40,201 nt of DNA from assembly GCA_937942475.1 (NCBI GenBank), contig CALDEP010000105.1:1-40201 (forward strand), in the 5' to 3' direction. The notes under the pieces were generated by a model, which did not search any database, was not told the origin of the DNA, and worked only from the letters and a program-made list of their open reading frames with translations. The DNA comes from an uncultured Aureispira sp. GTDB lineage: Bacteria; Bacteroidota; Bacteroidia; Chitinophagales; Saprospiraceae. How positions within the stretch are numbered: position 1 is the first letter of the stretch; each line of letters begins with the position of its first letter. Positions 2,709 through 39,017 of the stretch are shown in pieces. A program made the position numbers and the translations under genes.

Positions 2709-2738
2709 CTTCCCAAACCGCTATTTCACCTTCCCAAA
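2709..2738 (-). promoter_or_regulatory. Perfect tandem nonamer, candidate LytTR binding site
   Basis: CTTCCCAAA occurs at 2709-2717 and again at 2730-2738 (TTTGGGAAG on the minus strand): identical 9-mers, 12-bp spacer, exact 21-bp period. This is the arrangement bound by LytTR-domain dimers in studied members of the family. It lies between the kinase stop and the regulator start, 162-191 bp before the regulator ATG. A related pair is found at 1769-1798. Confidence 0.5.
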
Positions 2739-2752
2739 AGGCTTATTTAGCT

Positions 2753-5743: not shown

Positions 5744-5866
5744 AATGTTAAATAATCGCCACTTTTTGTGATTCTAGGATTTTCACTAAACTCTTTTCTA
5801 GCAAAATCATTTTAATTGTAGTAAATTTAAAGTTATATTCTTGATAAAAAATAGCCCAGCAAAACC

Positions 5867-8272: not shown

Positions 8273-8283
8273 ATGCTGAATTT

Positions 8284-8306
8284 CTATCTTTATGGATAGT
8301 TTTTTT
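8284..8306 (+). terminator. Weak intrinsic terminator after the TonB receptor gene
   Basis: CTATC (8284-8288) and GATAG (8295-8299) form a short stem followed by a run of seven T. It overlaps the stop codon of the convergent LRR gene. The five-pair stem is short, hence the low confidence. Confidence 0.35.
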
Positions 8307-8955
8307 CAAAGTAATTATTTTCGACATGCAGTTCCTTCAGATGTACTAAGTTTGAAAAACTATCGGGTAATTTTCTAAGGCGATTATTCTGTAAATTTAA
8401 GCCTTTTAGTTTTGTTAAGTTTCCAAAATCATCAGGTAAAGACTCCAATTGATTGTCTTCTAAATACAAATAAATCAGGTTTGTTAAATTTGAAAAGCCA
8501 CTAGGAAGCATCTTTAGTTTGTTATTTTCTAGATGTAATTCCTCTAGAGTCTTTAATGCTGAAATGCTATCGGGCAGTGCCCTTAATTGATTGTCCGACA
8601 GCAATAAGATTCTAAGTTTCTTTAGCGCTCCCAAACTATTCGGCAAGAATTCTAATTGCGTTTCTTGTATGGTTAAGTCTTCTAGGTTTTTAAAAATCTC
8701 CCACCCCTCTGGCAAGATTCTAAATTGATAGCTCTTTAAGGACAATCGATCTAGATGTGTTAATTTATAAACGCCCTCCAAATTAGAATATTCATTCCCA
8801 AAAACCAATTCAAGCAAATCTAGCCAAGGCGCTACTAGTTTTCGTTCTGAAATACGTCGCCCTTTTGCCACTTCAAAGGCTAATTCAATATTCTCTTTTT
8901 TGCCAGAAAGAATCAAGGCTTGCAACTGCAACAGTTCTTGTTTTTTATCCATCAT
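8290..8955 (-). CDS. Leucine-rich repeat protein
   Basis: 221 residues without a signal peptide. After an alpha-helical N-terminus (about 1-60) there are six to seven LRR units of 23 residues with the pattern LPxxxxxLxxLxxLxLxxNxL, for example LPDSISALKTLEELHLENNK and LPDDFGNLTKLKGLNLQNNR. This is the small bacterial LPXX-type LRR, normally a protein-binding solenoid. The N-terminal part (LQLQALILSGKKENIELAFEVAKGR) resembles the helical leader common to Saprospiria LRR proteins. It converges on the TonB receptor with 17 bp between stops and appears to be a single transcription unit. No catalytic domain is present; the partner is unknown. Confidence 0.85.
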   Translation of the reverse strand: MMDKKQELLQLQALILSGKKENIELAFEVAKGRRISERKLVAPWLDLLELVFGNEYSNLEGVYKLTHLDRLSLKSYQFRILPEGWEIFKNLEDLTIQETQLEFLPNSLGALKKLRILLLSDNQLRALPDSISALKTLEELHLENNKLKMLPSGFSNLTNLIYLYLEDNQLESLPDDFGNLTKLKGLNLQNNRLRKLPDSFSNLVHLKELHVENNYFEKNYP

Positions 8956-9080
8956 GCTTCTAATTTCTTAGCTAATTTATAGCTAAACCATAGATTACTT
9001 TTAGTATTAATCGACGATTAAAATACAGCCATTGTTTCTAAAACAATCCATTTCCGCTCTTTTTTTTATAAATAAAAAAA

Positions 9081-9104
9081 CCACAGCTAAACGTTTAGCT
9101 GTGG
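9081..9104 (-). terminator. Perfect 24-bp palindromic terminator
   Basis: CCACAGCTAAAC followed directly by its exact reverse complement GTTTAGCTGTGG. On the minus strand the stem is followed by a T-rich run (TTTTTTTATTTATAAAAAAA), so it should end transcripts of the T9SS cargo gene at 9280-11358. A modular repeat (9163-9274) lies between that gene and the stem. Confidence 0.75.
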
Positions 9105-9162
9105 TGTGCAACAAATCTAACTTTCCCCCGAAAGTTATTTCTCTATGTTTTGTTCTATATGT

Positions 9163-9274
9163 TAATACTTAGCTGCGCTGCTACTTATTCGCTATGCTCA
9201 TGAGCGCTTTGCTTAGAGTTCGTGGTCGTGGAGTTTAGCTGCGCTGTTACTGCCTGATCTACACGAAGCATAGT
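9163..9274. repeat. Short modular intergenic repeat, copy A1
   Basis: It begins TAATACTTAGCTGCGCTG, contains GCTCATGAGC and TTCGTGGTCGTGG, repeats TTTAGCTGCGCTGTTACTG, and ends CTACACGAAGCATAGTAT. The outer parts form an imperfect inverted repeat (AATACTT / AGTAT). The same modules recur at 12598-12625, 18005-18052, 20241-20338, 27031-27076, 32088-32116 and 39211-39264. No reading frame of note is found in the rest of 8956-9279. Confidence 0.6.
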
Positions 9275-9279
9275 ATCTT

Positions 9280-11358
9280 CTATTGTTTAATAATTTGTTT
9301 TTGCTGTGTGAATTGCTCCCCTCTCAAAACAAGGGTATAACAACCAGCATCCCAAGTTGCCGCTTCTGCAATTCCTATACGAATTTGACCTCTTGACAAG
9401 GTTTTTTCAGTCGCATAAACCACTTGACCTAAGGTATTATAAACTAGAATAGAAGCTTGGCTTTCATGCTCAGAATTGCTATATAACTCTACATTCAATA
9501 CCTCCTTAAATGGGTTGGGTGCGACACGCATTGTATAAGGTTCTAGATCGTCAAAAGAAACAATTCTGATTTCTGAATAAGTAGCTTCTCCATTGATTTC
9601 GACCATTTTTAGTCGGTAATAATTACGCCCCAAATAAGGTGCTTCATCTTTCCAAGTATAATAATTGGTTTGATTTTTTGCCTGAGTAGAAATAGATGTC
9701 AGCCTTTCAAAGTGAACACCATCCACACTACGCTCCAAGTCAAAATGACTCATATTGCGTTCTTCTTTTGTACTCCAAGTCAAGTCAACGCTTTTAGCGA
9801 CTCGTTTTGCCTCAAAATCCAGCAATTTTAAATCTAATAAAATGGCTGTTCCCGTTGTGGTGCCTCCAACAGGCACGACTCCCGTAATCAAACCACCACC
9901 AGAAAAACTATTGATGTCATGAATTTCAACATAGTTAGTTCCATTTGGAGCTGTTTGATTGTCCATAAAGTTCGTCAATTCTATCCCCGTATAAACCCCT
10001 TCTGGATGCAAAGAAGTTGGGGTACTGTAGGGTACTCCCGTCGTTTTGAAAAAATAGGTAGGACTTTGCACGCCACCATTCGTTCCTTGCCAATTCGCTG
10101 CTACCGTATTCATAGCGGCACGCTCTGCTCCTTGATAATAAAAACGAATCCAAACGGGATCAACAAGGTTACCAGAAAGCACCTCCACGTTCCAATAACG
10201 CCCCATTACAAATCGAGCAAGTTGCTGAGGAACATCCGTTCGCTTATAACAATCAGAGGTTGAATTATTGCGTACTTGAATGTTTGCTTGAGCAGTAAAA
10301 CTATTATTTCCTAAATTCATAGGATCGTGTGCAATTGCAAAAAGTAAATCATCAGGATCACTACTATTATAATAATACGTCCAATCTACCCCTGATTCTG
10401 TAACCGTACAACTAGCATCTGAACTTGTTAACGTATTAACAGGCGTATAAGTAGGTTCTTTTACGCTTGCCGTTACCAAAGTACGTGGGCTAGAACAAGG
10501 TCCACTTCCGCTTGTATAATGGATGTCTCCATTAAAATTACGCACTCGAAAAGTTAATCCAAAAGGATATGATTTTCCGACGCCCTCATACATCGTTAGA
10601 TTTGCATCAGAAGCCCAAACATTACCAACCGTTATTCCATCGGTATAAGACGTTCCTCCACCAAAATCATTGGTAATATAAAAAGAGTAGGTCTGTCCAG
10701 CAGGAATGCTCACATTAACAGGAATAGGAAGCACGGTTGGTAAATTATTACCAGCAGAAGTAATCCCTGTTGCCCCTCCTATGAACGTCCAAGCCCCTGC
10801 ATTTGCTTCAAAACCTACATGTGTCCCTGCTCGATAATAAATTTCATAATTCGCAGTCGTACCAGCATATAAATTGGCGTCAAAATTAGTAATCGTTACC
10901 GCATTCGTTGCGGTTAAATCAAACATACAGCCTCGTTGTCCATTATTAGAATTATAAGGTGCGGTCAAAAAAGAAGCGCCGCCACTAGCTCCTCCAACAA
11001 CTTCTTCTACCCAATAATTGGTTGTTCCTCCAACTGTCGGGCTAAAGGTAGCGCCTGTTCCTATGGCAGTTCCTCCTAAGGCAAGGCTGTACCAATTCAA
11101 CACCCCTCCTGCGGAAGCCGTTGCGGTCAAATTAGCTGCCATTCCTGGTCCACATAAATTATCACCACTGGCAACAGGAGCTGGGGGAGCCGTTCGCCCA
11201 TTGTTCTGATGATTGGGATTTACTTGTTGAAGAATGGATAAATCGCTTACCTCTTGACCGTAATTTTTTTGCGCTAAGTCGTCTACTGTCTGAGCGGATA
11301 AATCAATCGTAGCTAAAAGGGTTATAGCTGCAATAGTGTATGTAAATAATTTTTTCAT
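9280..11358 (-). CDS. Secreted protein with Ig-like domain and C-terminal type IX secretion sorting domain
   Basis: 692 residues from the ATG at 11358; the frame extends upstream to 11448, but only from 11358 does it begin with a proper signal peptide (MKKLFTYTIAAITLLATIDLSAQ). An Ig-like unit of the Bacteroidota adhesin type follows (GGVLNWYSLALGGTAIGTG, TFSPTVGGTTNYWVEE). The central part is beta-rich and unassigned. Near residue 535 there is a fibronectin/Por-associated unit (KSVDLTWSTKEERNMSHFDL, typical 'V.L.W.T..E.N...F.IERS' signature), and the last 85 residues are a Por/T9SS type A sorting domain (VAPNPFKEVLNVELYS ... GCYTLVLRGEQFTQQKQIIK). It should be exported through Sec, then the type IX system. 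A tandem repeat of 21-bp period precedes it (11452-11482), and a strong terminator follows. Confidence 0.88.
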   Translation of the reverse strand: MKKLFTYTIAAITLLATIDLSAQTVDDLAQKNYGQEVSDLSILQQVNPNHQNNGRTAPPAPVASGDNLCGPGMAANLTATASAGGVLNWYSLALGGTAIGTGATFSPTVGGTTNYWVEEVVGGASGGASFLTAPYNSNNGQRGCMFDLTATNAVTITNFDANLYAGTTANYEIYYRAGTHVGFEANAGAWTFIGGATGITSAGNNLPTVLPIPVNVSIPAGQTYSFYITNDFGGGTSYTDGITVGNVWASDANLTMYEGVGKSYPFGLTFRVRNFNGDIHYTSGSGPCSSPRTLVTASVKEPTYTPVNTLTSSDASCTVTESGVDWTYYYNSSDPDDLLFAIAHDPMNLGNNSFTAQANIQVRNNSTSDCYKRTDVPQQLARFVMGRYWNVEVLSGNLVDPVWIRFYYQGAERAAMNTVAANWQGTNGGVQSPTYFFKTTGVPYSTPTSLHPEGVYTGIELTNFMDNQTAPNGTNYVEIHDINSFSGGGLITGVVPVGGTTTGTAILLDLKLLDFEAKRVAKSVDLTWSTKEERNMSHFDLERSVDGVHFERLTSISTQAKNQTNYYTWKDEAPYLGRNYYRLKMVEINGEATYSEIRIVSFDDLEPYTMRVAPNPFKEVLNVELYSNSEHESQASILVYNTLGQVVYATEKTLSRGQIRIGIAEAATWDAGCYTLVLRGEQFTQQKQIIKQ

Positions 11359-11451
11359 TTGTTGTAATTTGTGTGATTTGTGATTTAATGGTTGGGACGA
11401 AAATTTTACAACATTTTCTTTAACACAAAGTAAAGCCTTCACAAACATTCA

Positions 11452-11482
11452 AAACGGACATCCTTGCTTCCTAAACGGACAT
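11452..11482 (-). promoter_or_regulatory. Tandem 10-mer with 21-bp period upstream of the T9SS cargo gene
   Basis: AAACGGACAT occurs at 11452-11461 and again at 11473-11482 (ATGTCCGTTT on the minus strand), an exact 21-bp period. It is 94-124 bp before the start codon at 11358. On the minus strand the promoter-proximal copy runs into TTTTG, which stands about 17 bp before TACTTTG, a near match to the Bacteroidota promoter. The direct-repeat geometry fits a LytTR-type activator, although the sequence differs from the TTTGGGAAG sites. Confidence 0.45.
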
Positions 11483-11550
11483 ATTGGCTTTGGAGGCTTT
11501 TTTAAGCTATTTCTGTCTATTCTGGAAGCCTTCTTTTGTTCTTTTTTTAA

Positions 11551-11770
11551 TAACTGATGTTACGCAGAATTTTTTTATTCCTATTAAGAACCCGAAATTT
11601 GCTCCTTGAACCTTTGTTTTAATTTTTAATGTTGAATGCTTAATTTTTAATGCTAATTCTATTATAAAGCATTCAACATTAAAAATTAAGCATTCAACAT
11701 TCAGAATAAATTTATACAGGAACATTAATTTTTTATCTCCTTAATTGTGTTTTTGCGTAACATGAGTTAA
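11551..11770. mobile_element. MITE-like element, copy 1
   Basis: About 220 bp. Left end TAACTGATGTTACGCA, right end TGCGTAACATGAGTTA: terminal inverted repeats with one mismatch. Inside, ATTTTTAATGTTGAATGCTT-type units are mirrored by AAGCATTCAACATTAAAAAT, giving a long hairpin. Read on the minus strand it is nearly identical to copy 4 (32068-32313) over about 105 bp. There is no transposase. It fills much of the gap 11359-11889; no other gene was seen there. Confidence 0.75.
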
Positions 11771-11889
11771 TAAAAAGAATCCCTTTGATCTTTTTTCTTC
11801 ATCTAGCATGGCATAACTTTTGACAAAACAGAAGGGTATATTATCCATCATAACCCACCCACTTCTATCAAACTGAAACATTCTATTTA

Positions 11890-12486
11890 ATGAAACATCT
11901 ACTCGTACTTCTTAGTCTATTTGTCTTAACTCATAGTAGTTTTGCACAACAATCTTTTAGTGCAAAAGGAAACAATGCGCTCAAAGTTGATATTCCTAAC
12001 CGTAACTTCTCTGTTCAGCAAACAAAAGCACAGAGTATCATTGTTGATATTGAGGTTAGTACGAACTATCCCAAAGCAGTGATTGAGCAACTGCAAAAAG
12101 TAAATCGTTACAAAGTAACGTCTAAATCACAAGACGGCACCTTTGTTTTAAGTCTGCCTAATCTCAAAAATGGCGTTACGATAGGTGGAAAAGCCTTGAC
12201 GGAAACCATTAAGCTTAGTGTAAAAATGCCTAATGGATTCACGACTAAAGGAAATACTATATTTAAGGCTGAAAATCAAAAAACAATTGACCAATCGGTT
12301 CAAGTAAATGTCCGTTTTGTCTATCCAACAGGACGTACTGCTGCACCTCAAGCCAAAGCGCCTAGCAAAGGAGGAGCGGTGAAACGTTCTGCCAAGAAAA
12401 AAGTGCCTAATTCAACGAATGAAGTCCAAGCCTTATATGGTGACATCATTATTGGAAATATGCCTATTGATGATTTTTACGATTAA
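11890..12486 (+). CDS. Secreted protein of unknown function
   Basis: 198 residues beginning with a clear signal peptide (MKHLLVLLSLFVLTHSSFAQ). The body is beta-strand-like with Lys and Thr (SIIVDIEVSTNYPKAVIEQL, VTIGGKALTETIKLSVKMP), and residues about 150-170 form a basic, Ala/Lys-rich stretch (APSKGGAVKRSAKKK). No family is recognised and no catalytic motif is seen. It stands alone, after MITE copy 1 and before the OmpH-like gene with a repeat-rich gap of 321 bp. Periplasmic or surface location is inferred from the leader alone. Confidence 0.75.
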   Translation: MKHLLVLLSLFVLTHSSFAQQSFSAKGNNALKVDIPNRNFSVQQTKAQSIIVDIEVSTNYPKAVIEQLQKVNRYKVTSKSQDGTFVLSLPNLKNGVTIGGKALTETIKLSVKMPNGFTTKGNTIFKAENQKTIDQSVQVNVRFVYPTGRTAAPQAKAPSKGGAVKRSAKKKVPNSTNEVQALYGDIIIGNMPIDDFYD

Positions 12487-12560
12487 ATTTTATCGTCTAA
12501 AGTTCCTTAGGAATGAGAAAGAAATAAAGTGAACAAGTGTTGTTAAATATTTTTGAGGAT

Positions 12561-12720
12561 GAAAGTTTTAAAAAATGAGTAGTGTAACGGGTTACACGTC
12601 CGACCACGAAGTAGCAGCGAAGCTATTTTTTTGAAACTTTCAGACCAAAAAGATGACGCAAAACGTTCATTTTATTTTTTGAACGTTCCTTATCTCTACT
12701 AATTTGAATTTTGCGTTAAG
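12561..12720. repeat. Nested inverted repeats with a fragment of the modular repeat
   Basis: The region upstream of the OmpH-like gene contains three stacked inverted repeats: GAAAGTTTTAAAAAA (12561-12575) against TTTTTTTGAAACTTTC (12626-12641); inside it GTGTAACGGGTTACAC (12582-12597); and further on AACGTTCA (12662-12669) against TGAACGTT (12680-12687), flanked by ACGCAAAA/TTTTGCGT (12656-12663, 12709-12716). A module GACCACGAAGTAGCAGCGAA (around 12603) is shared with the A-type repeats. It may be a decayed mobile element. TAAATTTG at 12739-12746 could be the -7 box of the next gene, but no well-spaced -33 box was found. No gene is seen in 12487-12807. Confidence 0.5.
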
Positions 12721-17984: not shown

Positions 17985-18257
17985 CTGATGTTACGCATAA
18001 CTTAAAGCGCAGCGCTCATGAGCAAAGCGACCACGAAGTAGCAGCGGAGCTAACTAAAGTTAATTAGGCTGCTCAAAACTAGTAAACGGTTCAATAAATA
18101 TAGTTTAATTTTGAATTTTGAATGCTTAATTTTGAATGTCCTATTTTTAACCAAAAGACATTAAACATTCAAAATTAAGCATTCAGCATCAAAACAATAT
18201 TTTTTAAGTAAAAACAAGTTCAATACTATCTAAAATGTTCTTGCGTAAATGAGTTAA
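17982..18257. mobile_element. MITE-like element, copy 2 (supplies the CotH stop codon)
   Basis: Left end TAACTGATGTTACGCA at 17982, right end TGCGTAAATGAGTTA near 18256. The core has GAATGCTTAATTTTGAATGT mirrored by ACATTCAAAATTAAGCATTC. Next to the left end it carries an A-type module (18005-18052) with GCTCATGAGC and GACCACGAAGTAGCAGCGGA. No transposase. Confidence 0.72.
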
Positions 18258-27884: not shown

Positions 27885-30536
27885 TTACTTTTGAGTCAAT
27901 TTGCGTATATAGTTACCAAAATTAATCTCTTTGTACTTCTGCGCTTCAAAAGCTTTTGCCTCCAATTTGGGCAACAATTGTTTTAATTCTCTTAAGTTTT
28001 GTGCTAGCTCTCGATACGATTTTTGAACCTTAGGATGGTTAATTTTCTTGTTGTATTTTTGCAACTCTTCTTCCAATTCCTCTACTTCATTTGCCACTCG
28101 ATCAGCACGTGTTTCACAATCTTTCACGATAGATTCATAGAGGCTTCGATAATCTTGCAAGACTAGATTTTCTTCTTTTTCATAAGCCGTTTCCAATTCC
28201 GTGACATACTCTGTTACTGTTTCGTATTGCTCCTGCAAATTAGCATAAGGCGCTCCCAAGACAATTTTCCGAGTTTCTATTTTCACCTTTTCCAACTCCC
28301 CACGCTTAAAACGATCCAAATTTTTCAATTCCATTCGTTTTTCGGTCTCCAAAGCACTTCTTTTCTGACGATATTCTTTTTTCAAAAGCGCTTTTTCTTT
28401 ATCCAAAGCATTTAATTGATGCTTGGTTTCATCGTGCCAATGCTTCAAATTATTTAAAATGGTTTTAGACGCTCTAAATACTTTAGCATTAATTTTTTGA
28501 CCATCTTTGAGCACAATTTCTCCTGTTCTAGTATTAATACTATAAACTTGCAAAACAGAAGAGAACTTCAGTTCTTCCAAGGTATCTTTTAGGTCCTTTT
28601 TCATAGCCTCTGTAATGTTTCGTTTCCCCTTCCAAAGTCGATATATATGATTTTCAATAAAAGTATCCTCTCTAATATCTTGATACAATAATTTAATTTT
28701 CGCTTCTTGCTCATTGTACAAAGTCGTTAGTTTTGCTCCAATTAAATCACTAATTTTTGTTCGCTTGTTTTTCATCAAGCTATTAATCGCTATTTTTCCC
28801 TCCTTCATAAAAGGATGACTATCCTTTATGGGCTGATCTTTTACGAGTTGATCCACTGCTTTTTTATGGGCACTGTGAATGGCAATTCTAATTTTAGCCA
28901 AATTATTATAATTCCCATCTTCTACCCTAGCAATAATTCGATGCCCGATTGCCTTGTCGACATATTTTTGATTTAGATGCTCATATTGTTCTACTGCCTT
29001 GTTTTCTAATTCTTTTACTCGGTCATCCTGTTTTTTCAAATAAGCTTTAAGTCCCGCTATTTGTTCTTTTACTTCCTCTGTAAGGCGTTCTATCTTGGGC
29101 ACTATTCTACGAACACTTCGCTTAAAGCTCTTCCGACTTTGGGCAACTCGATAGGATTGTTTCTGATACTCTTTTTGGGTGGCAGCCAAAGCTATTTTAA
29201 TTCGTTCAGCCTGAAGGTAGGTACCATCTTTTCTGAAGTTTTTATCCGCTCGATACAGTAAAAAAAAGACTAGTAAAATGCCAACAATGGGCGTTGCTAT
29301 TACAAAAGATAAACCAACAAAAAGCCCCCAGCTCATTAATTGCCCCAGTTTAAGGGGCTTTACTTTAAAATCTTTCAGCTCCCTTTCGTTTGGAACACGT
29401 ACTTGGGGTTTTGGCAACTCATTATTATTACTCAACTCAACCAACTGCGTAGCAGCCATTGAATAAGAAGGCAAATCTATTCGAGCAGAAGGCAAAGGAA
29501 ATCGAGGTTTTCTAGTGTACAAACCACCTCCTAAAATATGCCCGTAACGCTTGTACGCAGTCTCATCATCTAGGCTTAATAAAATAGCCGCACACCACTC
29601 CTCTGCACTTGGGCGCAAATCAGGGTTTTCATTCCCATCAATAAAACAACGAAAAAACAAATCTTGTAAGCTCTTATCTAACTTATAAAAGGCTTTGTGT
29701 GGTGGAGGAATAATGCTAAACGAAGATTTTTTTGCAGGATGATGCACAAACAAACCATGCTTAATTTTATCATGCAAGGTCGTCAATCGCTCATAAGGCG
29801 CACCCGAGCTTGCCGCAAAAGGATGAATCCCAAATAGTAGTTTGTACAAAATCACCCCTAAACCAAAACGATCCCAAGCTTCTCTTTCTGTTGGGTCATA
29901 ATCTAGTTTTCTATAATGCTCTGGTGGAGTATATTCAGGAGTTGCCACAGGTGCATCAAACAAACTTTTCCCCGACTCCACCACTTCCACTGAGTCTGTA
30001 TCCACAATAGAAACCAAGCCATTGGTCTGAATCACAATGTTATCAGGCTTCATATCCACCAAAACATAGCGTTCTATAGAATGTACTTGATGAATGGCTG
30101 CGCAAATATTAAAGGATAATTTCAGCCGCATATCCATCGCCTTAGGTGATTTTTTAAAATCAAACCTTGCCCATTCTTGACGTAGTTTTTTAGGAATTTT
30201 GGGCGTACACAATATTTCTAGCTTCTCTCCCTCCGTATAAGGCATGATAAAACCTACAAATCTCCCCTTATCATAAAGCGAATCCTTGACCCAAATAACA
30301 GAATTGTGCGCTCCTGCATTTTCATCTGATTGAATGGGCGGATAAGCCGCTAAATAGTTGATTTTTTTCTCCCGTACGGGCGTTAGTTTATGTGGATGGT
30401 ATAATTTAGCAACGTACTTTCTTAATTCTTTTGGTGCTGTAATTTTATATAAATTCCCCTCTCCTCCTCCAGCAAAAGGCTTTGCTGAAAGGCTGACCCA
30501 AAGACCACTTTTTTCTAATTTATATTGTTTTGCCAC
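27885..30536 (-). CDS. Atypical Ser/Thr protein kinase with transmembrane region and long coiled coils
   Basis: 883 residues, start codon GTG at 30536 (no in-frame ATG upstream before a stop). Residues about 10-330 form a protein kinase domain: glycine-rich loop FAGGGEGNLYKI (21-32), VAKLY lysine K44, catalytic loop LVDMKPDNIVI with D161, K163 and N166 (the usual HRD is VD here), metal-binding D179 in DTD (in place of DFG) and a PEYTPPEHY activation end. Two close hydrophobic helices lie at about 405-435 (LMSWGLFVGLSFVIATPIVG). The remainder, about 450 residues, is highly charged coiled coil. This resembles the YegI-type membrane kinases (family-level inference). The coiled coil may act as an oligomerisation or sensing module. 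MITE copy 3 ends 28 bp upstream of the start; the GNAT gene beyond it is on the same strand. Confidence 0.85.
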   Translation of the reverse strand: MAKQYKLEKSGLWVSLSAKPFAGGGEGNLYKITAPKELRKYVAKLYHPHKLTPVREKKINYLAAYPPIQSDENAGAHNSVIWVKDSLYDKGRFVGFIMPYTEGEKLEILCTPKIPKKLRQEWARFDFKKSPKAMDMRLKLSFNICAAIHQVHSIERYVLVDMKPDNIVIQTNGLVSIVDTDSVEVVESGKSLFDAPVATPEYTPPEHYRKLDYDPTEREAWDRFGLGVILYKLLFGIHPFAASSGAPYERLTTLHDKIKHGLFVHHPAKKSSFSIIPPPHKAFYKLDKSLQDLFFRCFIDGNENPDLRPSAEEWCAAILLSLDDETAYKRYGHILGGGLYTRKPRFPLPSARIDLPSYSMAATQLVELSNNNELPKPQVRVPNERELKDFKVKPLKLGQLMSWGLFVGLSFVIATPIVGILLVFFLLYRADKNFRKDGTYLQAERIKIALAATQKEYQKQSYRVAQSRKSFKRSVRRIVPKIERLTEEVKEQIAGLKAYLKKQDDRVKELENKAVEQYEHLNQKYVDKAIGHRIIARVEDGNYNNLAKIRIAIHSAHKKAVDQLVKDQPIKDSHPFMKEGKIAINSLMKNKRTKISDLIGAKLTTLYNEQEAKIKLLYQDIREDTFIENHIYRLWKGKRNITEAMKKDLKDTLEELKFSSVLQVYSINTRTGEIVLKDGQKINAKVFRASKTILNNLKHWHDETKHQLNALDKEKALLKKEYRQKRSALETEKRMELKNLDRFKRGELEKVKIETRKIVLGAPYANLQEQYETVTEYVTELETAYEKEENLVLQDYRSLYESIVKDCETRADRVANEVEELEEELQKYNKKINHPKVQKSYRELAQNLRELKQLLPKLEAKAFEAQKYKEINFGNYIRKLTQK

Positions 30537-32067: not shown

Positions 32068-32313
32068 TAACTCATGTTACGCAAAACTCAAAGCGCAGCG
32101 CTCATGAGCGAAGCGAACTAAAAATAATTAAGGAGATAAAAATTTAATGCTCCTGTATAAACTTGTTCTGAATGTTGAATGCTTAATGTTGAATGCTTTC
32201 AAATAGAATTAGCATTAAAAATTAAGCATTCAACATTAAAAATTAAAACAAAGGTTCAAGGAGCAAATTTCGGGTTCTTAATAGGAATAAAAAAATCTGC
32301 GTAACATCAGGTA
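32068..32313. mobile_element. MITE-like element, copy 4 (in leader of the STM4015 gene)
   Basis: Left end TAACTCATGTTACGCA, right end TGCGTAACATCAGGTA. Opposite in orientation to copy 1 (11551-11770) and nearly identical to it over about 105 bp at the right side, indicating recent spread. It contains an A-type module (32088-32116, AAAGCGCAGCGCTCATGAGC) that copy 1 lacks. Internal arms built of GAATGCTTAATGTTGAATGC and AGCATTAAAAATTAAGC can pair. Confidence 0.75.
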
Positions 32314-32347: not shown

Positions 32348-33274
32348 ATGACATTTTCAAGAAACGCATTTTACTTTAATAAGAAAAAAGTAATTGATTT
32401 TGATATTGAAAAAGGTATCGAAAATACGGAACTAGCCTATCGTTTTCGCACAGAATACGATGGTCCAGAAAATGAGGTTCAAAATATGATCAAAGCTTTT
32501 TTGAACGATCCTAAATTAGGCGAAGTAGATAGTTTTGTCATTGGACATTGGGGACCAGAACACGATGATTCTCCCCTCTCTATTATTCAATTATTAGTGG
32601 ATAACAAAGCTAAATTACAACACATCAAGGGCATCTTTTTTGGAGACATTACCTATGAAGAAAATGAAGTTTCATGGATTGAAAACTGTAATCATGGTCC
32701 CGTTTTAGCTGCCTTGCCCAATCTAGAGTTTTATCAAGTTCGTGGTGGTAATGGTCTTGCTTTTGGTGAATTAAACCATTCCAATCTAAAAAAATTGGTC
32801 ATCCAAACAGGTGGCTTATCCAAATCCATTTTTGCAGAGCTTTCCAAGGCGGGTTTACCTGCTTTAGAACACTTAGAACTGTGGTTAGGTTCTGATAATT
32901 ATGGTTTTAATGCCACTCCTGAAGAGGTGGCAGCATCTTACAGAGGCGCTGGCGGCAATCACTTACCTTCCTTGAAATATTTGGGTTTAAGAAATAGTGA
33001 AATTGCAAATGAATTAGCACAATTCATAAAAGGAGATCCTATCCTAGATCGTATTGAAATATTAGATTTTTCTAGAGGAACGATTGACGATATAGGGGCG
33101 GAGGCATTGGTTGATAATCCTGCTATTAAAAACTTAAAAAAACTAGACTTGCACCACAATTTCATCTCCGATGAATGGGCAGCAAAATTAGAAGACTTAG
33201 GCATCAAAGTAGATCTTAAAGAAAGAGAACCTGATGCCGATGAAGACGATCGTTATATTTCTGTTTCAGAGTAA
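32348..33274 (+). CDS. STM4015-family LRR-like protein
   Basis: 308 residues, no signal peptide. The sequence follows the STM4015 family pattern: SFVIGHWGPEHDDSP, GIFFGDITYEENEVSWIENC, LEFYQVRGGNGL, LEHLELWLGSDNYG, LKYLGLRNSEIANELA, IEILDFSRGTIDDIGAEALV, LKKLDLHHNFISDEWA, and the family's C-terminal end DDRYISVSE. The LRR-like units are irregular (about 24-28 residues) and probably form a protein-binding solenoid. In Salmonella and many other bacteria it is encoded beside STM4011-STM4014 (known from the naming of these families); no biochemical role is known to me. It is the first gene of the cassette, 17 bp before the ATP-grasp gene, behind a predicted promoter (32020-32050) and MITE copy 4. 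Confidence 0.88.
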   Translation: MTFSRNAFYFNKKKVIDFDIEKGIENTELAYRFRTEYDGPENEVQNMIKAFLNDPKLGEVDSFVIGHWGPEHDDSPLSIIQLLVDNKAKLQHIKGIFFGDITYEENEVSWIENCNHGPVLAALPNLEFYQVRGGNGLAFGELNHSNLKKLVIQTGGLSKSIFAELSKAGLPALEHLELWLGSDNYGFNATPEEVAASYRGAGGNHLPSLKYLGLRNSEIANELAQFIKGDPILDRIEILDFSRGTIDDIGAEALVDNPAIKNLKKLDLHHNFISDEWAAKLEDLGIKVDLKEREPDADEDDRYISVSE

Positions 33275-33291
33275 ATTCTAGACATTATCAG

Positions 33292-34434
33292 ATGCAATTT
33301 ACGCTTATTGGAAATCCAGAAAATAGACGTTGTCCATATTTTATAGCGGCAGTAAAATCTCAAGGTTTTACTGCCCCTTTTGTTGTTTCTTATTTAGATC
33401 TATTACAACAAAAAGTAGATTTAAAAAAGATACTTGCCCAAACAGATTATTTGAGGGTAGAATCTCCTGGAGAAAATCGAGCGGTTAGCAATGCCTTTCT
33501 AAAATTGGGCGTAGAACATCCTTTATTAGCTGATGCCCCTTCGATTGGTCTTTCAGCCATAGCGCAATTGCCTTTCGAAAAAGGGCGCATTCAATTTTTG
33601 CGACAAAATCACCTTGGATTTCTTGTTTTTTTGGATCAATTACAACAAGCAATTGCACCACATACACAGTTGAAGTTGATGAATAGTCTTGCAGGAATCA
33701 AATTGATGTTTGACAAAGCGGCTTGCCATCAACATTTTTCTCAACAGGCTATTTCTGTTCCATCGGCACTTTATAAGATCAAAAACTACGAGGATTTACG
33801 TACTCAAATGCAGGAAAAAGGTTGGCAACGAGTTTTCATCAAGCCCATTCATGGTTCTTCTGCTTCTGGTGTCATTGCCTTTAGAGTTCAAAAAGATAAA
33901 ATTCAAGCCATTACTTCTGTTGAATTGGTCAAAGAAAAAGCTTCTTTTAAATTATTCAATGCTTTAAAAATTCGTACCTATAACAACACTAAGGAAATTG
34001 CCTATTTAGTAAATACATTAGCAAAAGAGGGCATTATTGTAGAACAATGGATTCCTAAAGCTACTGTAGAAGGTGGTGCTTTTGATTTGAGAATGGTCGT
34101 TATTGGTGGCAAAACACAGCAAGTTGTTGTCCGTCAAAGTCATTCTCCTATGACCAATTTGCATTTGGGCAATCAAAGGGGCAGTATAGCGGAAGTAAAA
34201 GCGGTCATTGGCTTAGATAAATGGCAAAAAATGAGCGACTTAGCCGAACAAGCAGCTCGTACCTTACCAAACACCCTTTATGCTGGCATGGATGTTATGA
34301 TTTCAAATACCTTGAAAAAAAGCTACATCTTAGAAGCCAATGCCTTTGGGGATTTGTTGCCCAATGTGTTTATTAATAACATGGATACTTATACTAGCAC
34401 CATAAATTATATAAAAGAACAAGAATATGCTTGA
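33292..34434 (+). CDS. STM4014-family ATP-grasp-like protein
   Basis: 380 residues. An N-terminal domain (1-125) precedes an ATP-grasp fold: K139ish MFDKAACHQHF, K184 in VFIKPIHGSSASGV, hinge EQWIPKA, D265/R267 in FDLRMVVIGG, R281 in VVRQSHSPMTNLHLGNQRG, D334 in AGMDVM, and E348/N350 in YILEANAFGD, which together give the ATP and Mg ligands of RimK-like ligases. An amide- or peptide-bond-forming ligase is a reasonable inference; substrate unknown. It overlaps the following HAD gene by 8 bp and follows the STM4015 gene by 17 bp, so the three are translationally coupled or co-transcribed. Confidence 0.85.
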   Translation: MQFTLIGNPENRRCPYFIAAVKSQGFTAPFVVSYLDLLQQKVDLKKILAQTDYLRVESPGENRAVSNAFLKLGVEHPLLADAPSIGLSAIAQLPFEKGRIQFLRQNHLGFLVFLDQLQQAIAPHTQLKLMNSLAGIKLMFDKAACHQHFSQQAISVPSALYKIKNYEDLRTQMQEKGWQRVFIKPIHGSSASGVIAFRVQKDKIQAITSVELVKEKASFKLFNALKIRTYNNTKEIAYLVNTLAKEGIIVEQWIPKATVEGGAFDLRMVVIGGKTQQVVVRQSHSPMTNLHLGNQRGSIAEVKAVIGLDKWQKMSDLAEQAARTLPNTLYAGMDVMISNTLKKSYILEANAFGDLLPNVFINNMDTYTSTINYIKEQEYA

Positions 34435-35080
34435 TTCTATTACAACCATATATTTTGACCTTGACAATACGCTCATCAATCGCAATGCTGCTTTTTTAGC
34501 TTGTATGCAACAGTTTTTTGATGAGAATATGCCGAACTACTATTTTAAAAACGAAGAATTTGAAATAGAGAAGGTGGATCAGTTTGGTTATGCACCACGA
34601 GAAGAATTTGTAGAATGGTTTATTCAATATTATCAACCATCGGGCTGGAACGAAACGAATTTGTGGAATTATATGCATGCTAATATTAGTAATTTTGTGC
34701 GCCCCATTTCACCCACTTTGAGAGACTTCTTATTATCACTACAAAAAAGATATAGAATTGGGATCTTAACAAATGGTTCTATTAGTAACCAAAGTCGAAA
34801 AATTCACAAGGCGCAACTAGATGCTATTTTCCCTACAGAAACGATCCATATTTCTCAGCAATACCGTCTATCCAAACCCAATCCTGCCTTATTTGAATTG
34901 GTATTAGAACAATGGCAACTCCAACCACAACAATTATTGTATGTGGGTGACGATCCCATGAACGATATAAAAGGAGCCGCAAAAGTAGGCATCAAAACCG
35001 CTTGGCTGAGCCACAAAAGAGAATGGATTCACAAAATAAAACCAGATATCATCCTTGAAAACATCTTTGATTTAGGATAA
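34427..35080 (+). CDS. HAD-superfamily hydrolase (subfamily IA, YjjG/phosphoglycolate-phosphatase-like)
   Basis: 217 residues, normal for the class. Motif I FDLDNTLINR with D11 and D13, motif II ILTNGS, motif III YRLSKPNPALFE (Lys), motif IV YVGDDPMNDIKGAAKVG. A helical C1 cap lies between motif I and II. It should be a phosphatase acting on a small phosphorylated metabolite. Its ATG lies inside the last codons of the ATP-grasp gene (8-bp overlap), so it belongs to the cassette even though the core named set is STM4011-STM4015. The product could generate or remove a phosphate of the pathway intermediate. A 356-bp repeat-rich gap follows. Confidence 0.88.
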   Translation: MLDSITTIYFDLDNTLINRNAAFLACMQQFFDENMPNYYFKNEEFEIEKVDQFGYAPREEFVEWFIQYYQPSGWNETNLWNYMHANISNFVRPISPTLRDFLLSLQKRYRIGILTNGSISNQSRKIHKAQLDAIFPTETIHISQQYRLSKPNPALFELVLEQWQLQPQQLLYVGDDPMNDIKGAAKVGIKTAWLSHKREWIHKIKPDIILENIFDLG

Positions 35081-35111
35081 ATTTTTGTTACGTTTTGTAA
35101 TAATTTGCTAC

Positions 35112-35382
35112 GTACAGGACATTTTTTTATCTAATAAAATATTGAATGTGCTTAACACTTTTTATTAGATTTTAGATCGTTTCACTTTTAGATTTTAGAT
35201 ATTAGACCTTATTAAGCTGTAATAGGGTCTAATATCTAACAGCAAAGCGATCTAATATCTAAAAGCATTCGCAAAGCGACCGAGCTGTTTTGTGTTATAC
35301 ACAAACAGGGATGCTCGATCTAATTCTTAGTTTTTAATAGATTTAAGATTTAAAGTATTTAGCTTTACTTTTTGTCCTGTAC
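35112..35382. mobile_element. Second inverted-repeat element inside the cassette
   Basis: Perfect 10-bp ends GTACAGGACA (35112-35121) and TGTCCTGTAC (35373-35382). Internally GATATTAGACC... is mirrored by ...GGTCTAATATC, and modules with GCAAAGCGA resemble the A-type repeats. AATAATTTGCTAC lies just outside the left end and AATAATTTGCCTAC just beyond the right end, perhaps a target duplication. No transposase or other gene is seen in the gap 35081-35436. Confidence 0.55.
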
Positions 35383-35436
35383 ATAGAATAATTTGCCTAC
35401 AGTAACATTTCATAATTTCAAAACCTTCTTATTGGT

Positions 35437-36240
35437 ATGCCATATAACATGAACGAAATTGTCGCTGAAAGTGACCTCGTTTTGATCACCTTAGATACCT
35501 TGCGTTATGATGTTGCTCAGACACTTTGGATAAAAGGCAAATTGCCCAACTTTTCTAAATGGCTGTCCCCTAATGGATGGGAAAAACGCCATACCCCTGG
35601 AAGTTTTACTTATGCTGCACACCATGCTTTTTTTGCTGGTTTTTTGCCAACTCCTATCGCTCCAGGAAAGCATCCTCGCCTCTTTGCTACGCAATTTGCA
35701 GGCAGCGAAACAGCCGTTCAAAATACATGTACCTTTGATGCGCCCAACATTGTAGAAGGACTTCAACAGAAAGGCTTTAAGACCATTTGCATTGGAGGCG
35801 TTGGTTTTTTCAACAAACAAACACCCTTGAGCACTGTTTTTCCTAACTTATTTGAAGAAAGCTATTGGGAACCTTCTTTTGGCGTAACCAACAAACAATC
35901 CACCCAAGTACAATTTGAAAAAGCCGCTGATTTGTTAGAAAAAAATTCAGATCCTGTCTTTTTATTTATCAACATTTCCGCTTTGCACCAACCCAATTGT
36001 TTTTATCTAGAGAATCAATTGCACGACAGCATTGATAGCCATGCCGCAGCCTTGGAATATGTCGATAGTCAACTTCCTATTTTGATGGAAGCCTTGAACA
36101 AACGCAAACAAAGCTTTGTCATTTGCTCTGCCGATCATGGCACTACCTATGGCGAGGATGGTTATACGGGGCATCGAATTGGGCATCCCAAGGTTTGGAC
36201 TGTTCCTTATTTGGAAGTTTTGTTGACCAATGCCTCCTAA
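35437..36240 (+). CDS. STM4013-family hydrolase (alkaline phosphatase/sulfatase superfamily)
   Basis: 267 residues; the ATG at 35449 (MNEIVAESDLVLITLDTLRY) is an alternative to that at 35437. Metal-binding D of LVLITLDTLRYD, putative nucleophile in TPGSFTYAAHHAFFAGFLP, later CSADHGTTYGEDGYTGHRIGHP with D-H and H ligands, as in alkaline-phosphatase-superfamily phosphatases, phosphodiesterases and sulfatases. It is shorter than usual sulfatases (about 450-550), no signal peptide, so cytoplasmic. It may cleave a phosphate or phosphodiester of a pathway intermediate. It is separated from the HAD gene by the element at 35112-35382 and from the radical SAM gene by MITE copy 5, whereas the same genes are compact elsewhere. 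Confidence 0.87.
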   Translation: MPYNMNEIVAESDLVLITLDTLRYDVAQTLWIKGKLPNFSKWLSPNGWEKRHTPGSFTYAAHHAFFAGFLPTPIAPGKHPRLFATQFAGSETAVQNTCTFDAPNIVEGLQQKGFKTICIGGVGFFNKQTPLSTVFPNLFEESYWEPSFGVTNKQSTQVQFEKAADLLEKNSDPVFLFINISALHQPNCFYLENQLHDSIDSHAAALEYVDSQLPILMEALNKRKQSFVICSADHGTTYGEDGYTGHRIGHPKVWTVPYLEVLLTNAS

Positions 36241-36460
36241 TTATCTCTGTTGAGCAAAAAAATGATTCGGTAGCTAAATAATTCAATGTTCCTGTATCAA
36301 ATAGCCTTAATTTTTAATGCTTAATTCTTAATGTGGAATGCTTTATAGTAGAATTAACATTAAAAATTCAGCATTCAACATTAAGAATTAAAAGAAGCGT
36401 TCAATAAGCAAGTCTCGAGTTCTCAATAGGAGTAAAAAAATCTTGTGTAACATCAGTTAA
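36241..36460. mobile_element. MITE-like element, copy 5 (degraded)
   Basis: Starts right after the STM4013-like stop; left end TTATCTCTGTTGAGCAAAA is a decayed form of TAACTCATGTTACGCAAAA, right end TGTGTAACATCAGTTAA. The inner arms TTAATTTTTAATGCTTAATT and AATTAACATTAAAAATTC are preserved, as is the AAAGGTTCAAGGAGC-like region in changed form. Same orientation as copy 4. Confidence 0.6.
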
Positions 36461-36495
36461 TTAAATACAAACACATCAAGAACGAAAATCATAAA

Positions 36496-37815
36496 ATGAC
36501 CAAATTAAAATCAATCATAGGCGACAATTATTTTCAAGGTTACGCCTATTCTTACCCTCATAAATCGAGTTATCGCCCTTTTGAAAATCCAATTCCTTTG
36601 AAAGAGGCTTGGGCAGTAGAAAACAAGGAACAACTTTTCTTGTACGTACACATTCCTTTTTGTGAAATGCGCTGTGGTTTTTGTAATTTATTTACCATTG
36701 CCAATCCAAAATCAACGCACGAAAGTCCTTTTATTCAAAGCTTAGAACGCCAAGCCATTGAAACCAAAGCAGCTTTAGGAAAAGCAACGTTTAATCGCTT
36801 GGCAATTGGTGGGGGAACGCCTACTTTTTTGAGCCTGCCTGATTTAGAGCGCTTGTTTTATCTTATTAATAACATCATGGGCGCAGATACGATTGCGATT
36901 CCAAGCTCTGTAGAAATGTCTCCCAAAACGGCTAGTCCAGAAAAACTAGCTTTATTAAAAGAAAAAGGCACGACTAGAGCCAGTATTGGCGTACAAAGTT
37001 TCTTGTTAGAAGAGACCAAAGCACTTGGTCGCCCACAAAAAACCGTAGAAGTACAAAAAGCTTTACAAATCATCAAAGATTCAGGTATTCCTGAGATGAA
37101 TATTGATTTGATTTATGGCATGGCTGGACAAACGCTCCAATCTTGGCAATATTCTCTAGAGCAAAGTGTGGCTTTTCAGCCAGAGGAAATTTTCTTGTAC
37201 CCACTCTATGTTCGTGCCCTCACAGGTTTGGGTTCTAAAGAAAAAGCATGGAATGATCATCGCTTAAATCTATATCGCTTTGGTCGAGACTTCTTATTAT
37301 CACAAGGCTACGAACAAGTTACCATGCGTATTTTCAGAAATACAAAAGCCGTCCAAATGCCTACGCCTCCTTACAACAGCCCAGAAGATGGGATGGTTGG
37401 CTTGGGTGTTGGCGCACGTTCGTACACCAAAACGCTGCACTACAGTTCCGAATATGCCGTTGGTCGCAAAGGGGTTAAAAATATCATTCACGATTATAAT
37501 GAAAAAACAAGCCAAGATTTTCAAAAGGTTCTGTACGGAACGACACTATCTCTAGAAGAACAAAAACGTCGTTATGTGATCAAATCCATCTTAGAAGGAA
37601 GTTATTTAGATTTCAAGGCTTATCATAACTTTTTTGGAAGTGCCGCCTTGGATGATTTGCCAGAGTTACATGAATTATACGAGCTTAATTTGGCTTCAAA
37701 AGAACAAGATAAATTGCAACTCAGTCAAGCTGGCTTGGAGCTTTCCGATGTCATTGGTCCTTGGCTATATTCAGAACGGGTCAATGCCATGATGCAGGAT
37801 TTTGAACTGGTTTAA
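36496..37815 (+). CDS. STM4012-family radical SAM protein (HemW/HemN-like)
   Basis: 439 residues. Radical SAM core with the cluster motif HIPFCEMRCGFCNLF: C56, C60, C63 (CX3CX2C), followed by LAIGGGTPTFLS (GGGTP, SAM-binding), SVEMSPKTAS, ASIGVQSFLLEETKALGR and MNIDLIYGMAGQ, all in the order of HemN-type proteins. The C-terminal HemN-like domain (SQDFQKVLYGTTLSLEEQKR onward) is present. It is not HemW itself: it lacks heme-biosynthesis neighbours and sits in the STM4011-4015 cassette. It probably carries out a radical reaction (dehydrogenation, decarboxylation or methylthiolation cannot be separated by eye). It is followed 26 bp later by the STM4011-like gene. Confidence 0.9.
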   Translation: MTKLKSIIGDNYFQGYAYSYPHKSSYRPFENPIPLKEAWAVENKEQLFLYVHIPFCEMRCGFCNLFTIANPKSTHESPFIQSLERQAIETKAALGKATFNRLAIGGGTPTFLSLPDLERLFYLINNIMGADTIAIPSSVEMSPKTASPEKLALLKEKGTTRASIGVQSFLLEETKALGRPQKTVEVQKALQIIKDSGIPEMNIDLIYGMAGQTLQSWQYSLEQSVAFQPEEIFLYPLYVRALTGLGSKEKAWNDHRLNLYRFGRDFLLSQGYEQVTMRIFRNTKAVQMPTPPYNSPEDGMVGLGVGARSYTKTLHYSSEYAVGRKGVKNIIHDYNEKTSQDFQKVLYGTTLSLEEQKRRYVIKSILEGSYLDFKAYHNFFGSAALDDLPELHELYELNLASKEQDKLQLSQAGLELSDVIGPWLYSERVNAMMQDFELV

Positions 37816-37841
37816 ATCGAATTTAAAAATTGATTCTTAAC

Positions 37842-38699
37842 ATGACAAACTGGTCTATTTTATATCGTGGTCCACTTTCTAGCTGCAATTATGGTTGCAC
37901 CTATTGTCCTTTTGCAAAGACTAAAAACACCCGTGCAGAATTGGCAGAGGATGCTCAACGCTTGCAAAAATTTGTGGCTTGGGTGAAGAGCCGTTCCGAA
38001 AACATTAGCATTTTATTTACGCCTTGGGGAGAAGGCTTGATTCGCAACTATTATCAAGAAGCAATGACCACACTCAGTCATTTGCCGCAGGTAAAAAAAG
38101 TGACAATTCAAACCAACCTTTCCTGTGCTACAAAGTGGATGGAGAAGGTCAATAAAGAGACCTTTGCCTTGTGGACGACCTTTCATCCTACTCAGATTAG
38201 CTTAGATAAATTTGTTGACAAATGCAGTCAATTGGATGCTTTAGACATTCAATACAGTGTTGGTTTTGTTGCCTTCAAAGAAGAATTAGACATCTTGGAA
38301 CGCTTGCGGAATCGCATTCATCCCAAACGCTATGTTTGGGCAAATGCTTACAAACGGGTTGCCGATTATTATTCGGAAGCAGATATTTTGAGAATTGAAA
38401 AGGTAGATCCTTTGTTTCGTTATAATACCGTTTATCACCAAAGTTTGGGCAAATCTTGCCAAGCAGGGCATACTTCTTTCACCATAGATGGCAATGGTGA
38501 TGTACGTAGTTGTCATTTTATTGATAACATTTTGGGGAATATATATGTGGATGACATGCAAGCAATTTTAGCACCAAGAACTTGTATTAATGCCACTTGT
38601 GGCTGTCATATTGGCTATGTTCATTTGGATGAACTCAATTTGTATGAAACGTATGAGGATGGTGTTTTGGAGCGTATTCCTGCTGCTTATCGAAGGTGA
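37842..38699 (+). CDS. STM4011-family radical SAM protein
   Basis: 285 residues from the ATG at 37842; a TTG at 37830 is in frame, but MTNWSILYRGPLSSCNYGCT is the usual beginning. Radical SAM cluster C15, C19, C22 (CNYGCTYC). The glycine-rich SAM region is FTPWGEGL. The C-terminal part has five further cysteines (KSCQAGHTSFTIDGNG, VRSCHF, RTCINATCGCHIGY), likely ligands of an auxiliary iron-sulfur cluster as in SPASM proteins (inference). It is the last gene of the cassette, and a long hairpin follows at 38823-38892. Confidence 0.9.
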   Translation: MTNWSILYRGPLSSCNYGCTYCPFAKTKNTRAELAEDAQRLQKFVAWVKSRSENISILFTPWGEGLIRNYYQEAMTTLSHLPQVKKVTIQTNLSCATKWMEKVNKETFALWTTFHPTQISLDKFVDKCSQLDALDIQYSVGFVAFKEELDILERLRNRIHPKRYVWANAYKRVADYYSEADILRIEKVDPLFRYNTVYHQSLGKSCQAGHTSFTIDGNGDVRSCHFIDNILGNIYVDDMQAILAPRTCINATCGCHIGYVHLDELNLYETYEDGVLERIPAAYRR

Positions 38700-38822
38700 T
38701 TTTTTAATAAAATCATTCTATTTTATTTCCATAACTTCAACTAAGATTATTTTGATTTACTTAGTACAGTGTGTAAAATATTATTACATAATAAAGCATA
38801 AAAAGCTGCTCTTGCAGGATAA

Positions 38823-38892
38823 GCCTGCTTCGTACCTCGCAGAGACAGCCCTAGTTTAAAGACTGGTTGTCTCTGCGAGGTACGAAGCAGGC
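38823..38892. repeat. Long perfect hairpin downstream of the cassette
   Basis: Arms 38823-38847 (starts GCCTGCTTCGTACCTCGC) and 38868-38892 are perfect reverse complements over 25 bp, with a 20-nt loop. They contain TTCGTACCTCGCAGAGACA, not the A-module sequence. It is much longer than a normal terminator and has no T-run, so a mobile or processed-RNA role is possible. Confidence 0.6.
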
Positions 38893-39017
38893 CTATCTTG
38901 TATTTACTTTGGAGCTTGTCCAATATTTACTTCAAAACTTGCTCTATTCTATTAAAAAATTATGTTACAGGTACTTAGTTTCTAACTAAAAAGACGTACC
39001 AATTCAAGGGTTTAAAT

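Follow-up and report, generated by a model that had tools for sequence, protein, structure and literature searches.

RimK lengthens ribosomal protein S6 at its C-terminal glutamate. Amino-group carrier proteins, as outlined in PMC9303977, keep a building block bound by its amino group during tailoring, the anchor being the side-chain carboxylate of the glutamate at their C-terminus, and in these systems an acidic carrier is paired with basic patches on the enzymes. Here we compare with such systems a gene cassette located at 32348-38699 of a 40,201-nucleotide stretch of DNA (termed the window; contig CALDEP010000105.1 of assembly GCA_937942475.1) from an uncultured Aureispira sp. of the Bacteroidota. 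A first-pass annotation of the window had placed six genes here on one strand, and all six open reading frames (ORFs) were confirmed on the + strand at the coordinates it gave. Its assignment of five of the products to families named after the collinear Salmonella loci STM4011-STM4015 was also borne out, as STM4015, STM4014, STM4013, STM4012 and STM4011, encoded in that order, each exceed the curated cut-off of the NCBIfam model. The annotated six-gene cassette thus stands for the five named families, and its remaining member, a HAD phosphatase, is accessory.

We propose, with moderate confidence, that the leucine-rich repeat (LRR) protein of the cassette, STM4015, is modified at its C-terminus by the enzymes encoded beside it, with the ATP-grasp ligase STM4014 loading the terminal glutamate and the two radical S-adenosylmethionine (SAM) enzymes, STM4012 and STM4011, processing the loaded group. 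We see about an even chance that the cassette represents an unrecognised class of carrier-protein biosynthesis or protein-borne cofactor, in which LRR proteins, and at least once a pentapeptide-repeat protein, would bear on the C-terminal glutamate a group that is reworked by two radical SAM enzymes.

A glutamate-ending tail on STM4015

The feature that carries this proposal, missed by the first-pass annotation, is found at the C-terminus of STM4015, where a variable acidic linker is followed by the motif RY-x-x-V-x-Glu. In the window copy (32348..33274, + strand; 308 amino acids; NF038076, 297.7 bits vs. a cut-off of 275), the linker of residues 289-301 is encoded at 33212..33250 (+) and the tail RYISVSE with its stop codon at 33251..33274 (+), with Glu308 as the last residue and proposed attachment site. 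For comparison, 90 loci were assembled (80 from genomes, 9 from plasmids and the window); the 80 are the best of at least 563 relatives found by scanning genome contigs with an STM4013 profile and, being picked by STM4013 similarity, lean to relatives with a true cassette. Tails were counted over STM4015 matches of more than 60 bits that end at a stop codon. Glutamate was the last residue in 123 of 126 such matches, or 122 of 125 when L001, which duplicates the window, was set aside. Within the 126, position -6 was Tyr in 109 and Phe in 11, position -7 Arg in 107, position -3 Val in 105 and position -4 Ala in 83 and Ser in 22, with position -2 divided among Ser (41), Gly (38), Ala (19) and Thr (10). 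When the proteins were clustered on the body without the tail, glutamate was terminal in all 29 representatives of less than 45% identity; the E308 column was invariant in two alignments (A2 and A6), and each of the 81 loci with STM4015 held at least one Glu-ending copy. The Salmonella (YMNAMYTE) and Methylobacterium (YRSIAVSE) proteins keep the glutamate and not the Tyr at -6. Across the family, linker residues -20 to -9 carry a mean of 4.3 net acidic charges (three or more in 77%), and the linker differs in length and sequence among aligned proteins that have the terminal glutamate in common.

The tail was found to track the enzymes. Among 101 genomes of the genus Streptomyces, three (G331, G374 and G401) carry STM4015 with no STM4014, STM4012 or STM4011 over cut-off; these lone copies are 47-69% identical in the body to a cassette copy, and none of the three ends in glutamate. 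By contrast, a Glu-ending copy was present in 42 of 42 enzyme-bearing genomes (41 with all five genes plus G333), for which one copy was fetched from each of 41 genomes and G297 was counted as locus L043. Such a split has a probability of about 7 in 100,000 by chance if the genomes are taken as independent, which these are not. A broken gene in G373, in which a premature stop falls after a Glu codon by chance, was excluded. G401 also has a partial STM4011 match (53.9 bits) that includes a stop codon and may be what is left of a lost cassette. Where a scanned locus lacks STM4015, the copies detected at other places in the genome (L096, L097, L100, L101 and L105) bear the tail, and the motif occurs in none of six distinct weak LRR relatives of less than 100 bits. 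Since the extreme C-terminus is conserved and tracks enzyme presence, the LRR protein, which the first-pass annotation had taken for a binding partner, is more likely to be the substrate or carrier of the enzymes than a mere partner. More than one STM4015 copy was detected in 26 of the 75 loci with all five genes, with up to four copies per enzyme set, and this sharing of one enzyme set by multiple copies likewise argues for STM4015 as a substrate rather than a subunit. In a Calothrix genome (L178, genome G705, 2501-12597), three STM4015 genes were observed, two of them tailed and one ending otherwise, at a position that differs in genome numbering from that of L030.

The tail was also detected on another repeat scaffold. 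A Xenococcaceae metagenome bin (L020) contains a pentapeptide-repeat protein that adjoins two STM4015 genes, matches PF00805 (3.5e-26) and ends in HRYELVGE; among the 14,339 other ORFs of the loci, it alone fits the tail pattern, and looser patterns added five more ORFs that have the appearance of chance frames. A pattern restricted to the commonest tail, which therefore misses ends such as that of the L020 protein, gave 44 matches in 50 genomes compared to 4 for the reversed pattern. When these 44 were classed by ORFs, and partly by coordinates, 36 were intact STM4015 ends, 2 were degenerate remnants alongside (in Nostoc), 3 had no stop codon and 3 were due to chance; no further non-LRR protein with the commonest tail was detected in the 50 genomes. 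The same pattern had 62 matches within the loci, 60 at intact STM4015 ends and the other 2 at the Nostoc remnants.

The body of STM4015 matches only its own family in NCBIfam. The LRR-like character noted in the first-pass annotation is not established by Pfam, in which LRR models score below cut-off (25.8 vs. 27), and rests instead on the AlphaFold model (AF2, single chain as for all structure predictions here; mean predicted local distance difference test score, pLDDT, 93.8) together with a match to its nearest solved structure, 2ra8 of Bacteroides fragilis (E 1.9e-21). The 2ra8 profile match stops at ITE, residue 354 of the 362-residue construct, and the native chain seems to end in glutamate as well, the final 8 residues being presumed to be a purification tag. 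STM4015 proteins are acidic, with a median isoelectric point (pI) of 4.5 (4.8 for the window copy). In a Bacteroidota locus (L002, 1501-2610), STM4015 has an N-terminal WGR domain (PF05406, 8.7e-17) and the gene order is 4012-4011-4015-4014.

Enzymes of the cassette

STM4014 of the window (33292..34434, +; 380 amino acids; NF038074, 377.3 bits vs. 175) is an ATP-grasp ligase. A profile built from 51 STM4014 sequences matched in the PDB, at E <= 0.01, only LysX or LysX-like proteins (1uc8, 1uc9, 3vpd) and RimK (5zct, 4iwx), with E-values of 1e-4 to 7e-3. The AF2 model (pLDDT 95.1) had as its first two fold matches ArgX in complex with LysW, Glu and ADP (3vpb, E 5.8e-15 and 2.9e-14) and as its third ArgX 3vpc, followed by PsnB and RimK, with MdnC also among the matches. 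Residues K142, K184, R267, D334 and N350 are kept in 82 of 82 proteins and E348 in 81; by analogy, K142, K184, D334, E348 and N350 are likely ATP and metal residues. The protein reaches neither the LysX cut-off (TIGR02144, 17.9 bits vs. 275.6) nor that of RimK (TIGR00768, 30 bits vs. 143.4). Most STM4014 proteins are basic (median pI 8.6, 10-90% range 6.1-9.5; window copy 9.4), and the combination with an acidic STM4015 resembles the charge pairing of amino-group carrier systems.

The presence of two different radical SAM enzymes, as first annotated, is upheld by NCBIfam and by the CxxxCxxC motif. STM4012 (36496..37815, +; NF006067, 558.1 bits vs. 380) has this motif in 81 of 81 proteins, and its nearest solved structures are HemN (1olt, 6.6e-25) and NocN, a radical SAM methyltransferase (9p2u, 4e-18). 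A role as heme enzyme or chaperone was rejected, as STM4012 scores below cut-off for both HemW (140.5 vs. 205.4) and HemN (138.5 vs. 324.95). STM4011 (37842..38699, +; NF038073, 378.7 bits vs. 200) falls below the Pfam Radical_SAM cut-off (25.6 vs. 29.5), and its assignment is based on its NCBIfam family and on CxxxCxxC, found in 80 of 80 proteins. Its cysteine-rich C-terminal part is SPASM-like: C206, C224, C248, C253 and C255 are present in 80 of 80 and C-x(9-15)-G-x4-C in 79 of 80, with a Pfam SPASM score of 18.5 bits that is below the 21.5 cut-off. The only PDB match at E <= 0.01 was a weak one to SkfB (6efn, E 6.6e-4). Translation of STM4011 more likely starts at ATG 37842 than at TTG 37830; the ATG start (MTNWSILYRG) agrees with that of relatives.

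STM4013 (35437..36240, +; NF038075, 399.7 bits vs. 250) is a hydrolase of the alkaline-phosphatase superfamily with D20, T58, D233 and H234 in 89 of 89 proteins and H246 in 87; its PDB matches, to sulfatases and phosphodiesterases, are weak. T58 is the likely nucleophile position. In sulfatases, a Cys or Ser at this position is turned into formylglycine, and a sulfatase role was rejected on the basis of the Thr in 89 of 89; with a Thr nucleophile, the enzyme is presumably a phosphodiesterase or phosphatase, as in nucleotide pyrophosphatase/phosphodiesterases. The HAD protein (34427..35080, +; PF13419, 7.6e-26) matches generic HAD families and belongs to none of the five named STM families, with TIGR02253 and YjjG as its best NCBIfam families, both under cut-off. 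DxDxT is intact in 20 of 20 HAD proteins, and HAD is present in 21 of the 79 loci that hold STM4012 and STM4011.

Co-occurrence and distribution

All five genes are present in 75 of the 90 loci, usually in the order 4015-4014-(HAD)-4013-4012-4011 with one or more 4015 copies leading. As exceptions, 4014 and 4015 are on the other strand in five loci, 4012-4011 come first in one, and 4015 copies are internal in a few. L048 and L063 have an STM4013 match, with no STM4015 found in the genome.

Of the 101 Streptomyces-genus genomes, the complete set of five is over cut-off in 41, no gene of the cassette type is present in 52, and the other 8 hold part of the set. The eight include, besides the three with STM4015 and no enzymes, G313 and G328 with STM4012 alone, G321 with a partial STM4011, G333, where broken contigs carry STM4015, 4012 and 4011, and G373 with a decaying cassette that contains stops. 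STM4012 is over cut-off, and no other cassette gene is, at L136 5051-6562 (G313) and L137 5082-7022 (G328); this solitary STM4012 was considered as a clue to the chemistry and dropped, the context in G328 being uninterpretable. The STM4013 tally in these genomes refers to the cassette type only, that is, to 41 of the 46 genomes over cut-off. An STM4013 homologue of a second kind (about 340 bits) was observed outside the cassette and is the sole kind in G326, G340, G352, G363 and G374; in Streptomyces albidoflavus (L010, 5.9-9.3 kb) its companions are a thymidylate-kinase-like protein, a NUDIX hydrolase and a different radical SAM protein.

Among 296 genomes of Actinomycetota, the same 6 hold STM4015 and STM4011 over cut-off. 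STM4015 matches are rare in the window's phylum (4 of 296 genomes, including the window's own), two of them strong (297.6 and 273.6 bits). Among the best 80 of at least 563 relatives, the closest was Aureispira sp. CCB-QB1 (L014), with an STM4013 84% identical and the same six genes. Judged by organism names, the loci are from Bacteroidota, Pseudomonadota, Desulfobacterota, Cyanobacteria, Actinomycetota and Chloroflexota, and further from Myxococcota, Planctomycetota, Verrucomicrobiota, Lentisphaerota, Deinococcota and Bacillota. A megablast search with the Salmonella cassette gave no match in E. coli complete genomes.

The first-pass annotation had named co-occurrence as a check on its view of one conserved pathway, and the joint presence of the genes across loci and genomes supports that view. 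It had also known of no assigned function. We found none for the five families in the open-licence papers searched, nor any literature on the function of STM4011-STM4015, and the NCBIfam models are names without function. The entry for STM4013.S in a table of ChIP-chip sites in a sigma-54 study and that for STM4015, given as hypothetical in a selection study, are uninformative in this respect.

Proposed pathway and alternatives

The role of STM4015 as substrate or carrier is drawn from the conserved glutamate, its association with the enzymes and the fold neighbours of STM4014. The tail and its association with the enzymes, the intact motifs and the co-occurrence are seen directly in the sequences; from these we infer a product, a series of chemical steps and a set of protein contacts as follows. 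STM4015 would consist of a folded, strongly acidic LRR domain, an acidic linker and the tail RY-x-x-V-x-Glu-COOH, with the LRR body serving as recognition element for the enzymes. STM4014, as a member of the ArgX/LysX/RimK structural group, would use ATP to activate a carboxylate of the terminal glutamate and form a bond from it to an amino group on an amino acid or small molecule. The HemN-like STM4012 and SPASM-like STM4011 would alter the protein-held group or adjacent tail residues, and STM4013, plus HAD where present, would take off a phosphate-type group. The product would either remain on STM4015 as a prosthetic group or be freed by an enzyme from outside the cassette.

Several observations weigh against this proposal. 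Three of the 125 copies lack the terminal glutamate (in L026, L030 and L034), each next to intact copies, as do 3 of 9 unlinked extra STM4015 copies in cassette genomes (6 of 9 have it); one of the six distinct weak LRR relatives ends in glutamate without the remaining tail, and the lone-copy contrast consists of three genomes of one genus. Tyr at -6 (4.05 bits) and Arg at -7 (3.63 bits) outrank the glutamate (3.51 bits) in information content, so that Tyr could be the reactive residue, and several columns of the LRR body match or exceed the tail in information content. The tail is modeled with a pLDDT of about 87 and is not predicted to be disordered, and for this reason it may not be a free arm. 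The relationship of STM4014 to LysX and RimK is weak by sequence, its fold matches reach TM-scores (by query length) of a moderate 0.50-0.60, with D-Ala-D-Ala ligases close behind, and its net charge is negative in 28% of the proteins. Finally, none of the 25 most frequent of 47 neighbour groups is an obvious release enzyme.

Because the glutamate is matched in information content by Tyr -6 and Arg -7, a pathway akin to those of ribosomally synthesized and post-translationally modified peptides (RiPPs) is a serious rival, to which we give a low probability. Here, the radical SAM enzymes would cross-link Arg, Tyr and Glu of the tail and STM4014 would carry out a graspetide-style closure, with the LRR body as a giant leader and nothing external attached. 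The frequency of Tyr -6 (109 of 126) and Arg -7 (107 of 126), the SPASM-like cysteines of STM4011 with SkfB as its sole PDB match, and the fold similarity of STM4014 to graspetide ligases (PsnB and MdnC) would all fit such a scheme. The nucleophile of a graspetide ring, however, is Ser, Thr or Lys, and none of these is conserved in the tail, where positions -2 and -4 vary; moreover, position -1 is invariant in the 29 distant representatives and -6 is not, the Tyr being absent and the Glu present in the Salmonella and Methylobacterium proteins. A reading that we consider quite unlikely is that a free small molecule is made and that STM4015 acts as a scaffold or sensor, the tail merely docking into an enzyme such as STM4014. 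A docking motif would equally sit at the very end, vanish with the enzymes and move to another repeat scaffold, and the chemistry assigned to the tail is our deduction; yet most of the nearest folds to STM4014 (ArgX, RimK and PsnB) act on protein or peptide carboxylates, and multiple STM4015 copies per enzyme set are less expected for a scaffold. It is very improbable that STM4014 simply appends one or more amino acids to STM4015 as a RimK-like regulatory tag while the other enzymes serve a separate purpose: RimK is among the best STM4014 matches by both profile and fold, but the radical SAM enzymes and STM4013 co-occur too strictly with STM4014 and STM4015 to be unrelated. We therefore retain modification of the terminal glutamate of STM4015 as the favored explanation.

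Surroundings of the cassette

Neighbour genes were grouped within 4 kb, giving 47 groups in at least 5 loci, of which the 25 most frequent were examined. A DUF6745 protein (PF20530) is found in 37, and a protein of about 100 residues in 31, of the 79 loci with STM4012 and STM4011. This pair is nearly exclusive with HAD, both occurring in one locus. DUF6745 loci include L005, L007, L008, L012, L040, L043 and L080, and the gene is mostly on the strand opposite to the cassette (27 of 30 matches); the ~100-residue protein has conserved TGHxH and HEEH-like motifs. Neither Pfam nor NCBIfam assigned a function to the examples of the two proteins that were scanned. Both were considered as tail-bearing substrates and rejected, their C-termini being mutually alike and unlike the tail (12 of 30 DUF6745 and 31 small proteins examined). 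One peptidase group, an M23/LysM protein in 6 loci, is probably a cell-wall enzyme unrelated to the cassette. A LysK-type hydrolase was not noticed among the 25 groups, although no search was aimed at LysK.

A phage origin was rejected, since, in the 10 of 37 records listed, the best tblastn matches from the phage collection resemble bacterial contigs (Salmonella) entered as phage and the others are distant HemN relatives; a defense system was likewise rejected, as PADLOC yields only two weak radical SAM matches. In the window, STM4013 is preceded by a gap of 356 bases and STM4012 by one of 255. A dispersed repeat of 133 bases with internal palindromes, in appearance a small mobile element or a REP-like one, is present upstream of STM4015 (32166-32298) and of STM4012 (36311-36443) in copies that are 83% identical, with related pieces at 11617-11691 and 18103-18130. 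Directly past the cassette, at 38815-38900, a strong inverted repeat of 36 bases (92%) around a 14-base loop is a possible terminator. Upstream, at 27885-30536 on the opposite strand, lies a large protein-kinase-like protein of 883 amino acids with a long C-terminal part that is coiled-coil-rich in appearance.

Comparison with known systems

The family membership of all five proteins is known from NCBIfam; the tail and the carrier idea are new. The open-licence literature searched yielded no example of two radical SAM enzymes combined with chemistry held on a carrier that is a folded repeat protein. If the proposal is true, five families that have only Salmonella locus names, in about a dozen phyla, would acquire a first reaction along with a substrate and its site of attachment, in organisms as diverse as Salmonella, Streptomyces, Nostoc, Deinococcus and Aureispira. 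The pathway would be testable directly and at once, because a relative of the proposed carrier, 2ra8, already has a solved structure.

By the features tested, the cassette is outside the LysW, RimK, graspetide and pearlin families. Like RimK acting on ribosomal protein S6, it includes an ATP-grasp enzyme, and it differs in its radical SAM enzymes and in missing the RimK cut-off. The radical SAM RiPPs of the SkfB/SPASM type and the graspetides likewise apply radical SAM or ATP-grasp enzymes to ribosomal precursors. By contrast, the cassette has a folded LRR body rather than a short leader, a ring nucleophile is not conserved, and no peptidase or transporter was detected among its widely shared neighbours (25 groups examined). 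Pearlins share with the proposed pathway a small molecule assembled at the end of a ribosomal carrier, its C-terminus (PMC9303977), but loading is by a tRNA-dependent PEARL there and would be by ATP-grasp on a large repeat carrier here, and no match to a PEARL (LanB-like) ligase was found among the six cassette proteins in Pfam or NCBIfam. LysW with LysX/ArgX, and Vzb22, combine an acidic Glu-ending carrier, an ATP-dependent ligase and downstream tailoring (PMC9303977), as is proposed here. STM4015 differs from the small LysW domain as a putative LRR carrier of 300 residues, the cassette has two radical SAM enzymes, and STM4014 is far below the LysX cut-off, yet ArgX is still the nearest fold to STM4014. 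The cassette probably works most like the carrier systems.

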